Below, one piece after another: positions 55,037 through 59,483 of a stretch of 64,000 nucleotides of DNA. The stretch comes from Clostridia bacterium (GTDB lineage Bacteria > Bacillota > Clostridia > Oscillospirales > Acutalibacteraceae), in NCBI GenBank assembly GCA_017517135.1, contig JAFXAK010000003.1, forward strand, positions 1 to 64,000, given 5' to 3'. Within the stretch, counting starts at the first letter, position 1. Every line of letters starts with the position of its first letter. The notes under the pieces were generated by a model. The model ran no database searches. It was not told where the DNA came from and was given only the letters and a program-made list of their open reading frames with translations. Position numbers and translations under genes: made by a program.

Positions 55037-55065
55037 TTGCAAAAGCAAATATCATATGTTAATAT
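55037..55065 (+). promoter_or_regulatory. Candidate promoter of spo0A
   Basis: TTGCAA (55037-55042), 17 bp, TAATAT (55060-55065). The 220-bp AT-rich region between the rubrerythrin terminator and spo0A also has TGTCAAA (about 54984-54990), one base from the 0A-box core TGTCGAA. No clear sigma-H promoter was seen. Confidence 0.5.
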
Positions 55066-55131
55066 ATGGTAGAAATGTAAATCACTTGGTGATAACATTG
55101 TAAAAAAATGAAAAATTGAGAGGATTTTGTT

Positions 55132-55923
55132 ATGAGTCAGCAGAAAAAAGTTTTAATTGCGGAAGAGAACGGAGATTTTTTGAAAAATCTGATGGCATCA
55201 TTCAGAACATACGGCTTTGAATGTATGAGTGTTCCGAAGGACGGGGAGCAGATAATTTCGGTGCTGGGAAAATATCAGCCCGATATAATTATCATGGAAG
55301 CATTTATGGCAAGGTTTGATGCGCTTGCGGTATTGAAATTGCTTCCCACCGTAAAGCTGTCAGTAAAGCCCTATATAGTGGTGCTTTCAAATGCGGATAA
55401 TGATATGTTTGAACAGAAAATGTTAGCAGCGGGGGCGGACTATTATTTTATAAAGCCTGTTGATATTTCTATCCTCACAGAACGCATAGCACAGCTCAAC
55501 GGCTGGAGTGACAAGAATTCGGGAAATGTTGTTAAACTGAGAAATGCCAATCAGCCCGATTTAAAGGTTATTGTATCGGATATTATGCACGAGCTCGGAG
55601 TTCCTGCACATATCAAGGGATATCAGTATCTGCGTGATGCGATAATTCTTGCGGTCAACAGTCCCGATATGATGAATTCCGTCACAAAGGTGCTTTATCC
55701 CACCGTTGCAAAGAATTTCAGCACAACCTCGTCGAGAGTTGAAAGAGCGATCCGTCACGCAATTGAGGTTGCCTGGGACAGAGGAGATATTGATGTATTA
55801 AGCTCCTATTTCGGCTACACAATCCAGAATTCCCGCGGCAAGCCCACCAATTCCGAGTTTATAGCTCTTATTGCCGATAAATTACAGCTTCAGATGAAGG
55901 GCAGACAGGCAGTCAGCTTTTAA
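55132..55923 (+). CDS. spo0A: Spo0A-type sporulation response regulator with altered receiver
   Basis: Master regulator of sporulation entry, 263 aa. The C-terminal DNA-binding domain is typical: HELGVPAHIKGYQYLRDAI, SSRVERAIRHAIEVAWDRG and KPTNSEFIALIADKL. In the N-terminal receiver domain the acidic pair is E11-E12 (VLIAEEN) where Asp-Asp is usual. The phosphoacceptor position is E56 (IIIMEAFM) instead of Asp, and the following MP is MA. The conserved Ser (VLSN) and Lys (FIKP) remain. Phosphorelay control is therefore doubtful; Glu could mimic the phosphorylated state. It is a single gene between its own promoter and terminator. Confidence 0.92.
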   Translation: MSQQKKVLIAEENGDFLKNLMASFRTYGFECMSVPKDGEQIISVLGKYQPDIIIMEAFMARFDALAVLKLLPTVKLSVKPYIVVLSNADNDMFEQKMLAAGADYYFIKPVDISILTERIAQLNGWSDKNSGNVVKLRNANQPDLKVIVSDIMHELGVPAHIKGYQYLRDAIILAVNSPDMMNSVTKVLYPTVAKNFSTTSSRVERAIRHAIEVAWDRGDIDVLSSYFGYTIQNSRGKPTNSEFIALIADKLQLQMKGRQAVSF

Positions 55924-55985: not shown

Positions 55986-58900
55986 TTAAATTATGTTGAT
56001 TGTAACAGGGCCTATAAGCCCCGATTTTGCATCGGCAGGGAAGTTTGAGTATCTTGAGGGGATAGTTGAGTAATGGTTGCAAAGGGTGTTGGAAACTGTG
56101 ATTTTAAGCTTATTTTCACCGTTTATTAAATATCTGCTTATATCAGCCTCAAACGGTGCAAAGGTCAGAACTGCCGCAACCTCCGAATTGATTTCAATTT
56201 TTGCGGTAGCGCCCAGTTCCCCGAGAGACAGGATATATTTTCTGTTCCTGTCTGTACTTTCAACAAAAACGCTTTTTTCATAAACAAGCTTACCCGAATA
56301 GCATTCAAGTGCACCCATTTTGCTTGTGTCTCCGAGACGGATAACAGCATTATCACCTGTTTTCAGGTCAACAGGCTCGGGGATTATTGAGGTATATGAA
56401 TAACCGCTGTCTGCCTTTACAAATAAAACAACCTGTGTGGCATTTTCAGAGGATTTTTTCAGCTTAGCTTCAAATTTTCTTGTGCCGAAGCTTCCTTTGC
56501 CGATTTCAGTTATCAGCATTTCCTCGTTGTCTGATAAAGCCTTTGTGAGTGTGCCGAAAAGCGATATGCTAAAGCCCTCAAAACCGGGAACACTTGTAAA
56601 TCTGAAGCAGTAAATATCTTCATTTTCACCGTGCGGCACAAAGCGGAAAAATCCGCTGTTTGCAAAATTACAAGTTGAAAGGGGAATATCTGTTTTTTTG
56701 CACTCTTTGTTTTTACTGAATAACAGAGTTGCTCTTTTTACCTTGCCGCGGTTTCTCATACACTCAAAACGGCTTTCGTCATAAACAAAGCCTGCAACAA
56801 CAGTATTTTTGCCCTTGTGCAGTTTAACCTTTTCGGTGTTTATATCTGTCTTTTCACCGTTGATGTAAAGAAAATCTGCTTTTTCCCCGTCTGTTATCAT
56901 AAAGGCTTCGCAATCGGTGTCACTTGAAATATCGCTTACAAAAATGCTGTTTTCGTCAAAATAGAAATTATCGTCAAATACTTTTCCCTTTAAGCCGTGA
57001 AAGCCCTGCTCGCAAAGGAAGGTTTCATCATCCTTGCCGAGATATATAAAGCCGTATCGGTCGTGCAGAGATAAAATTTCACTACTGAAAAGCTCATTAT
57101 CGATACAGATACCGTCTGTTTTATTTGTCTTTGCTATGAATTTACAGATTTCCTGAGTTTTATCCTTTGAACGGATTATTTTAATGCTCTGAGCGTGGCA
57201 GTAGGGCAGAGAGGAAAAAGTGAATTTTTCGGGAACACAATCGCTGTTTTCCGCTGCAGTACAATCAAAAAATCTTGCCTGTGCACCTATAACCCCGCCT
57301 GCGGGTAAATAGAAATCACCGTAGGTATTATCGAGTGTGGGAACTAAAGAGAATTGCCATTTCCCGTCAAGCTCAATTTTTTTTCGTGTTTTTGCAATAT
57401 TGCTGTCTGATGTATCAAGAGCAGCGTCATACGGTATGGTATCATCAGTAAATAAAATCAGGGTGTCCGCATTTGCATCATTCGGCATTTTAATATAAGT
57501 ATAGCCGTCAAGATATTTTGTGCCGTCAAGCTTATATATTTTACCGTTGTCAGACTCCAACATATAAACATTTCCCGTTGCTTCAAAACGGCAGAAGCTG
57601 TCTTTCTCGGCATAGCGTACAAAGAATAAATCATTATCCCCGAAATGACGGCGGGTGACATAAACCTTACCTTTGCAGTCTGCTTTTTCCGGAATAAAGC
57701 TTCTCTGAATTTTGCTGTTTATAAATTCATACAGCCCGTAAAAATCCTTTACAAGGATGCAGTTTTTATGGGATGTAATTTTTTCAATATCGGCATTGAG
57801 AAGCTTATCATTTGCACCGTTAAGATCAGATGCAAAGGGGGTACAGCCCACAAAAGCCACCTTGCCGTCGCAGGAGAGAAATTCTTTTATTTTCCTTATG
57901 TTTGAATATCTGATGCAGTCAACATCACAGAAAATAAGTATCTTATATTTTTCATCTGCAATATTCAATGTGCCGTTTTCGCAGACGGCATTATCAATGG
58001 ATTGGAAGTCAATAAAATCAAAGTCAATCCCGTGATTAAAGAGTTTCTCTGCCGTATCAAAGGTTGAGTTTTTACATTTTTCACAGTTTTCTGCGTAATC
58101 AAAGGACGAAACGGGATAAAAGACAGCCGCATCGCAGAGATGTGTGCCGTAGGTCAGAATACTCGCCAGTCGCTTGTATTTCATAAGCCATTGCTGTTCA
58201 TCATCCCAATACGGCATTCTGAAATGGAAATCGGGGGGAGCCCACTCGTAAAATCCGCCGTTGGTTGAATAGTAAAGTCCGTGAAGATTGAGAAGATTGG
58301 CACCGAATATGAAGTTATCGCTTGTGGGAGCGGTAATACTTTCGAGCGTTGTGCCCCAGCCTGAGGAATGATAGCCCTCAAGCCATACTCTCGGTCTTTT
58401 ATAGAGATGTGCAATGGAGCTGTTTACCTTGACCTTTATAAGGTCGGCGGCTCTTCCCGGGGTATCGTTGCCGGGAGCGGTAAACCAACGGACAGTTCTG
58501 AAATAATCGCTGAATTCGTCGGGCTGTTTACCTCTGCTTGACTGGTCACAGCCGTAAATAAGCCCTCTTGAAGCGTGAAAATCGTATATGGGCTTGAAAT
58601 AGCAGTCCTCCATAAGCTGAGTTTTTACATCAGCTAAATCGAGACGGATTTTAGGCGTTATATCCGATAAATTAAAAAATGTGTGCGGAATGAAGCCTAA
58701 AATATCATAATTGAATTTTTTTATAAATTCTTCCCTGAGATTGCTTCTCCAGAGTGTGCGGTGGTCTGTGTTGAACAATAATTCATCCTGGAAAAAGTAG
58801 TTCAGCGTCCCGTTCTTTAACTGCGGATTTCTTCTTTCAAATTCCTCAAAATAAATACGGACAAGCATTTTACCGCAATCGGGATTAAGGGGACTTATTG

Positions 58901-59483
58901 AAAGGGGAGTAATGCGGCTTTCTATAACAAAGACCTCATCAAACGAATTCTGAATATCAATAAAGCCCTTGCCCTTTTCAAAAAGAATAACAGGCTTGGT
59001 ATAATCCTTATCTTCATAGGCAACAACAGCAAGGGTATGCTCGTTAATTCCCATATTGTTGAAATCTGTTTTTTTGCAGTAGAGATTTTCTGCATTCATC
59101 CCGGGGGTGTTTGCTATCCGGTCCGTGAAAAATCCGTTGCCTATCCACGCTAATGTGTAATCTCCCACACCTATTCCCATACCGAGCTTTTCGCACTCTT
59201 TGGCGGCATAGGAAAAGAAATCCCACCATTCTTCGGAAAACTGCTCAGGCTCGCCCTCAATGGACTTGCCGTGACCTCCGTAAGGCTCAGTGCTGTAGCG
59301 ACTGTATTGGTGGGAATAATTTATCTGTATACCGGCGATACCTTTTTCTTTGAGAAGCTGCAATTGCTTTGACAGTCTTTCCCTGTCAAGCTTATCGCCG
59401 CCCCACCAGTAAAAAGGTACCTCGCCGTATTTGTCATTTGGTGTGAGAAATGCATCTAAAAAATTCTTCGTAGGAGAATTCAT
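55986..59483 (-). CDS. Large GH106-like glycoside hydrolase (putative alpha-L-rhamnosidase)
   Basis: A 1165-aa protein without signal peptide. The start of the catalytic part (VPFYWWGGDKLDRERLSKQL, then EKGIAGIQINYSHQY) resembles the barrel entry of GH106-type proteins, with GMGIGVGDYTLAW and FQDELLFNTDHRTLW as possible active-site segments. The second half (about 700-1165) contains beta-sandwich modules and ends in a GH2-like sugar-binding domain (INGENKLKITVSNTL ... AKSGLIGPVTI). GH106 enzymes remove alpha-L-rhamnose from pectic glycans, but the substrate here is unproven and the family call is by layout. It starts 2 bp after the SCP2-like gene. Confidence 0.72.
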   Translation of the reverse strand: MNSPTKNFLDAFLTPNDKYGEVPFYWWGGDKLDRERLSKQLQLLKEKGIAGIQINYSHQYSRYSTEPYGGHGKSIEGEPEQFSEEWWDFFSYAAKECEKLGMGIGVGDYTLAWIGNGFFTDRIANTPGMNAENLYCKKTDFNNMGINEHTLAVVAYEDKDYTKPVILFEKGKGFIDIQNSFDEVFVIESRITPLSISPLNPDCGKMLVRIYFEEFERRNPQLKNGTLNYFFQDELLFNTDHRTLWRSNLREEFIKKFNYDILGFIPHTFFNLSDITPKIRLDLADVKTQLMEDCYFKPIYDFHASRGLIYGCDQSSRGKQPDEFSDYFRTVRWFTAPGNDTPGRAADLIKVKVNSSIAHLYKRPRVWLEGYHSSGWGTTLESITAPTSDNFIFGANLLNLHGLYYSTNGGFYEWAPPDFHFRMPYWDDEQQWLMKYKRLASILTYGTHLCDAAVFYPVSSFDYAENCEKCKNSTFDTAEKLFNHGIDFDFIDFQSIDNAVCENGTLNIADEKYKILIFCDVDCIRYSNIRKIKEFLSCDGKVAFVGCTPFASDLNGANDKLLNADIEKITSHKNCILVKDFYGLYEFINSKIQRSFIPEKADCKGKVYVTRRHFGDNDLFFVRYAEKDSFCRFEATGNVYMLESDNGKIYKLDGTKYLDGYTYIKMPNDANADTLILFTDDTIPYDAALDTSDSNIAKTRKKIELDGKWQFSLVPTLDNTYGDFYLPAGGVIGAQARFFDCTAAENSDCVPEKFTFSSLPYCHAQSIKIIRSKDKTQEICKFIAKTNKTDGICIDNELFSSEILSLHDRYGFIYLGKDDETFLCEQGFHGLKGKVFDDNFYFDENSIFVSDISSDTDCEAFMITDGEKADFLYINGEKTDINTEKVKLHKGKNTVVAGFVYDESRFECMRNRGKVKRATLLFSKNKECKKTDIPLSTCNFANSGFFRFVPHGENEDIYCFRFTSVPGFEGFSISLFGTLTKALSDNEEMLITEIGKGSFGTRKFEAKLKKSSENATQVVLFVKADSGYSYTSIIPEPVDLKTGDNAVIRLGDTSKMGALECYSGKLVYEKSVFVESTDRNRKYILSLGELGATAKIEINSEVAAVLTFAPFEADISRYLINGENKLKITVSNTLCNHYSTIPSRYSNFPADAKSGLIGPVTINII

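Follow-up and report, generated by a model that had tools for sequence, protein, structure and literature searches.

A Spo0A without its phospho-acceptor aspartate

The only Spo0A of the genome studied here has a receiver domain in which the phospho-acceptor Asp56 is gone, as a trait of its lineage, and the genome keeps sporulation genes and Spo0A-type target promoters. We put at roughly 55% the probability that this Asp-less Spo0A still controls its old targets while unphosphorylated, its action being governed by protein level or by a binding partner.

The gene lies at positions 55132..55923 on the forward strand (263 aa, stop codon included in the coordinates) of the window, by which we mean the whole 64,000-nucleotide stretch that was analyzed. 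Its product scored 276.9 bits against the NCBIfam Spo0A model TIGR02875 (cut-off 200), 153.1 bits against Pfam Spo0A_C (PF08769) and 47.5 bits against Response_reg. The receiver spans residues 7–119 (55150..55488, forward strand) and the Spo0A_C DNA-binding domain residues 148–251 (55573..55884, forward strand), the latter being 60% identical to the DNA-bound Spo0A structure 1lq1 with a target-normalized TM-score of 0.94. In an AlphaFold2 model built with 42 sequences (mean pLDDT 87.1, pTM 0.51), the receiver has the ordinary order of strands and helices and a normal fold. A sequence-only reading of this DNA had described a typical DNA-binding domain joined to a receiver with Glu in place of three Asp residues but with the active-site Ser and Lys kept, and translation and alignment to relatives bear this out (all codons on the forward strand): E11-E12 (55162..55167) replaces the metal-binding Asp pair, E56 (55297..55299) replaces the phospho-acceptor, and the switch residue S86 (55387..55389) and the Lys of K108-P109-V110 (55453..55461) are retained. 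The pocket is changed further by A60 for the canonical Pro, A64 for Gly and V110 at K+2, which is mostly Phe in canonical Spo0As. By descent and model score the protein is a Spo0A, yet not a phospho-accepting one; with a receiver fold and no acceptor Asp, it belongs among the Asp-less receivers or pseudo-receivers. No second, canonical Spo0A was found: the genome (94% complete) contains a single Spo0A_C match. Convergent with spo0A is an open reading frame of 1165 aa (55986-59483, reverse strand).

Residue 56 across relatives and the order of pocket changes

We took 118 relatives by kinship, 117 of which had some match to the protein, many of these being other response regulators. Position 56 could be read in 89 genomes (13 others with a long match were left unfetched; in the remaining 16 the match was short, distant or absent), giving 60 Asp, 21 Glu, 5 Asn, 1 Thr, 1 Gly and 1 Ser. 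Within the window's genus, 24 of 27 genomes were read, with 19 Glu, 1 Thr and 4 Asp. Among named relatives, the nearest are MAGs that carry the labels Oscillospiraceae, Ruminococcaceae or Clostridia, and ruminant guts are the source of many. Because Glu56 is found in several separate genomes of this genus, an assembly or annotation error, or chance, is excluded as its source.

A quick tree was built from 169 rows with the six pocket columns removed (L091 and L121, at <200 aa, were left out); 79 rows had been picked for likeness to the query, and one was a B. subtilis sequence. Position 56 was Asp in 131 rows, Glu in 30, Asn in 5 and Thr, Gly and Ser in 1 each. On it, the non-Asp rows of the genus group in a single clade of 19 (starred support of 99); four rows that combine Glu-Glu with Asp56 are its sister (99, starred), and the two join at 96 (starred). 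By parsimony, Asp and non-Asp interchange 15 times over the 169 rows, at least 10 of them on well-supported (starred) branches; since many rows were likeness-picked and the tree carries a long-branch warning, this number gives no rate for the order. D56E is a trait of this lineage and is preceded on the tree by Glu-Glu, but the change is not confined to it, as Asp56 was lost repeatedly, also to Asn, Ser, Gly and Thr.

The Glu-Glu replacement of the metal pair and Val/Ile at K+2 seem to have come before D56E, with the pocket changing stepwise. Phe was the commonest K+2 residue in Asp rows (63 Phe, 40 Ala/Ile/Leu/Val, 26 other), and non-Asp rows had 22 Ala/Ile/Leu/Val, 10 Phe and 7 other, these being raw counts uncorrected for relatedness. 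In CheY, the loss of Phe at K+2 has been associated with conformations that are more active (PMC12632262, in the part available). The series Asp-Asp/Asp56, Glu-Glu/Asp56 and Glu-Glu/Glu56 within one family amounts to a natural experiment on a receiver gaining independence from phosphate.

The pocket differs among close species. Within the 19-row clade, Glu is found at position 56 in 18 rows, at position 11 in 16 and at position 12 in 13 (Asp in the other 6), so that, of the three Glu positions, 56 is the most conserved and the conserved feature is not the Glu triad as such. S86 is present in 17/19 rows and K108 in 18/19. The sole Thr56 member of the genus, L012 (G025), has also lost Ser86 (to Leu), a joint loss that hints that positions 56 and 86 may work together. 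Elsewhere, L036 and L037 (from G079, a single-contig genome, and G103) combine Asn56 with Met for the conserved Lys108, both genomes keeping SpoIVA, and G101 has two near-identical Spo0A copies (L065, L068) on two contigs, each near a contig end.

Selection, sporulation genes and target promoters

Pairwise dN/dS (Nei-Gojobori; many dS values were saturated and some pairs gave no value) was 0.03–0.20 among Glu56 receivers and 0.07–0.20 among Asp56 receivers, with lower values in the DNA-binding domain. With values this far below 1, the receiver is under purifying selection. Across the 19-row clade, 17 receiver positions are invariant, as are 71 of 113 in the DNA-binding domain.

Phosphosite loss does not track sporulation-gene loss. 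SpoIVA, SASP, SpoIIGA and SpoIVB were all present in 12/14 non-Asp and 48/52 Asp genomes at ≥90% completeness; at all completeness levels the counts were 19/29 and 51/60, the non-Asp set holding more incomplete genomes. The window's genome has SpoIVA above its cut-off, SASP, SpoIVB, full-length homologs of SpoIIE and SpoIIGA (for which the NCBIfam cut-offs are reached in 0 and 1 of 118 genomes, respectively) and, judged by eye, an apparent SpoIIAA-SpoIIAB-sigma factor run (L316). To our knowledge, sporulation is not known from any member of the genus. Besides the full gene, short extra matches to the final 36 positions of the SpoIVB peptidase model turned up in open frames of 43 aa (G006:C29:19-935, G017:C73:4692-4799).

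Upstream of spoIIGA we found an opposite-strand 0A-box-like site (TTCGACA or near), 21–22 bp before TATAAT, the form in the window's genome being ATCGACA-N21-TATAAT. A spacing of this length is also a feature of the B. subtilis spoIIG promoter. We searched 21 genomes (12 Glu/Thr56, 7 Asp56, 2 unread at position 56). The pattern GAC[AG]-N21/22-TA[TC]AAT, which was relaxed once G019, G005 and G069 had been inspected, occurred before spoIIGA in 21/21 (shuffle mean 0.13) when whole fetched regions were used, an earlier test on short stretches before the guessed start codon having given 13/21. The strict GACA-TATAAT form occurred in 18/21, including 10/12 non-Asp genomes (shuffle mean 0.03). These predicted sites place 0A-box-type sequences ahead of a spoII gene. 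For spoIIE, a looser pattern was seen in 14/21 genomes against a shuffle mean of 1.86 (7/10 Glu56, 7/10 Asp56, 0/1 unread), and neither it nor the strict form was present at spoIIE in the window's genome. In the 0A box core, TGTCGAA, the contacted bases are G2, C4 and G5 (PMC3485338, as far as available). Near spoIIE and spoIIGA of the window's genome, short 0A-box patterns were no commoner than expected by chance, and exact TGTCGAA is rarer than expected in window positions 1-64000 (2 seen, 8.8 expected from shuffles).

Expression of spo0A

A putative vegetative-type promoter, TTGCAA-N17-TAATAT, lies upstream of spo0A with an adjoining conserved element, ATGGTAGAAAT (together 55037..55076, forward strand). 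The string ATG.TAA.ATATGG.AGAA across and after the -10 box is kept in 22 of the 23 genus rows listed, the 23rd having no N17 match, and similar promoters with the element are found in sister genera having Asp56. The conserved element is possibly an operator, which would put a control point at the spo0A promoter. Among 25 spo0A upstream regions of 260 bases each, none contained a sigma-H-type promoter and 6 contained a 0A-like word.

A SpoIVB-like gene directly precedes spo0A in many relatives. By eye, the two are adjacent in the Asn56 genome G079, and genus members with Glu56 and with Asp56 alike have them on separate contigs, so separation of spo0A from spoIVB is unsupported as the cause of the change.

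Histidine kinases

At least one orphan histidine kinase was reported for 47/48 spore-formers in Davidson 2018 (PMC6136694, in the part available), and such a kinase is expected in a direct-phosphorylation sporulation pathway. In the window's genome, 21 HATPase_c matches comprised 10 HisKA kinases, 6 GHKL-type kinases and 5 others resembling, by eye, GyrB, MutL, SpoIIAB and two small ATPases. A HisKA kinase was counted as paired if a same-strand receiver open reading frame (stop to stop) lay within 250 bases. All 10 HisKA kinases stand beside a receiver-domain gene, and all 6 GHKL kinases adjoin a REC or LytTR gene, as judged for one from its REC score and for five by eye, one of the five showing its LytTR part only. 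No orphan was therefore found among the 10 HisKA and 6 GHKL kinases that HisKA and HATPase_c models gave in this 94% complete genome. One apparent orphan (L181) proved to have a regulator directly upstream once wider sequence (L189) was inspected; L216 and L222 were rejected as orphans in the same way, wider sequence (L304, L305) showing an adjoining regulator.

The same holds in Asp56 relatives. Over nine family genomes (4 Glu56, 5 Asp56), 69/69 HisKA kinases were paired (window's genome, G000, 10; G006, 8; G012, 7; G018, 8; G022, 7; G014, 6; G033, 13; G058, 5; G070, 5). In the Asn56 genome G079, 13/15 HisKA kinases are adjacent to a regulator and 2 are in same-strand gene runs that also hold one. 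Among controls with a canonical pocket, G119 and G120 each had one orphan among 6 kinases, G118 had none among 19 except one hybrid, and the 9 of 36 kinases examined in G121 were 8 paired and one hybrid. No orphan kinase was seen in the window's genome, but since Asp56 relatives lack orphan HisKA kinases too, their absence is unsupported as the cause of D56E; it is weak evidence, as the canonical control G118 also has no plain orphan, and it cannot be tied to pocket loss, as the G118 pocket is intact. Rewiring may predate D56E. The family, Asp56 members included, departs from the described sporulation-signaling architectures.

A proposed phosphorylation-independent route and its alternatives

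With Asp56 gone, Spo0A in this lineage cannot be switched by phosphotransfer to that residue. Since the loss is a lineage trait and the sporulation genes and target promoters are kept, a rewired entry into sporulation is the simplest reading. In the model we propose, the sole Spo0A has become an Asp-less pseudo-receiver protein that would dimerize unphosphorylated and drive spoIIGA, and probably also spoIIE and spoIIA; the sporulation decision would be set by the amount of Spo0A made from the conserved vegetative-type promoter, by a ligand or partner that binds the receiver, or by both. The lineage-wide loss, the low dN/dS, the retained markers and spoIIGA sites, the single Spo0A, the fact that no orphan kinase was seen and Val at K+2 support this model. 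Against it, the paired kinases might cross-talk, the vegetative-type spo0A promoter is common to Asp56 relatives, orphan HisKA kinases are lacking where Asp56 is retained as well, and the strict spoIIE pattern is missing from the window's genome; besides, we know of no sporulating member of the genus, and one tool predicts few spore-formers in the order (see below). The earlier suggestion of a constitutively active or otherwise rewired Spo0A is partly supported: Asp56 transfer is impossible, and the retained genes and Spo0A-type promoters fit a rewired entry. It is weakened where it relied on Glu, as an Asp-to-Glu change alone is reported to be insufficient for constitutive activity of Spo0A (PMC4395418, after Green 1991, in the part available).

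That report bears directly on the rival in which Glu56, paired with S86 and K108, locks the receiver in its active form and only the amount of Spo0A is controlled. Mimicry of phosphate by Glu56 is possible: Glu imitates the phosphate in many response regulators (PMC12632262, same part), E56 is the best kept Glu with S86 and K108 kept beside it, and the one Thr56 row has no Ser86. Yet other lineages replaced Asp56 by Asn, Ser or Gly, and we did not use the excess of Glu among the substitutes as proof of mimicry, because Glu is the commonest substitute in Asp-less receivers generally (26%; PMC4395418, same part). On balance we consider a permanently locked receiver rather unlikely. A pocket that varies among close species would suit a Spo0A that no longer decides sporulation, either as a general regulator or with the sporulation genes on their way out and the receiver drifting. 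The organisms here are uncultured MAGs, and one tool predicts few Oscillospirales MAGs to sporulate, calling 1 of 34 from one host a spore-former (PMC12536801, in the part available). A receiver dN/dS far below 1, and markers and spoIIGA promoter sites that persist in non-Asp genomes, speak against this reading, which we judge quite improbable.

The phosphate could also have stayed and only its route changed, with Spo0A receiving it on a different residue, or from a paired or Ser/Thr kinase. The genome has 16 histidine kinases, and S86 and other possible acceptors remain, but the metal pair and Asp56 have all changed, and of the 17 invariant receiver positions only D51, D63, E94 and Y104 might, in our judgement, accept a phosphoryl group; we find this very doubtful. 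Returning to a Spo0A that acts without phosphorylation, a broader form of that reading is kinase-free sporulation entry, in which this family first lost its dedicated Spo0A kinases; Spo0A came to work unphosphorylated, its acceptor site decayed more than once, and control moved to spo0A transcription, from the conserved vegetative-type promoter with its adjoining element, or to a ligand of the pseudo-receiver. We put this forward only tentatively, as less likely than not, and G118, with an intact pocket but no plain orphan kinase, lowers its odds slightly. If it is true, Spo0A phosphorylation is not universal in spore-formers.

Comparison with known systems

A review describes Spo0A phosphorylation at the conserved Asp as the entry into sporulation in all endospore-formers, and Ruminococcaceae as having no phosphorelay (PMC11210211, in the part available). 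The part of PMC4395418 available names Spo0A twice, for the laboratory Asp-to-Glu change and its reference, and PMC12632262 has no occurrence of Spo0A. In the open PMC literature, no natural Asp-less Spo0A was among the matches listed, and none with D56E was found. The finding goes beyond the earlier reading: an Asp-less Spo0A evolved repeatedly in genomes keeping their sporulation genes, and several gut lineages with these genes are unable to phosphorylate Spo0A at the conserved Asp. Should they form spores, the bacterial developmental switch that is best known is able to work unphosphorylated, and finding spo0A in a genome does not reveal which signaling route is used.

The window's protein shares with canonical Spo0A (1qmp/1dz3, 5wq0, 1lq1, 1fc3) the domain order, DNA-binding domain, 0A-box-type targets and sporulation context, but differs in having no acceptor Asp, a Glu-Glu metal pair, Ala60/Ala64 and Val at K+2. 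Like the Asp-less receivers (ALR, PsR; ChxR, RitR, HP1043 and FrzS in the available parts of PMC4395418 and PMC12632262), it has a receiver fold without an acceptor, whereas its output domain is Spo0A_C. As in the direct-phosphorylation and phosphorelay architectures (PMC6136694, in the part available), Spo0A stands at the end of a route to the spoII genes; unlike the direct-phosphorylation architecture of that source, the window's genome has no orphan kinase that we saw and no acceptor Asp.
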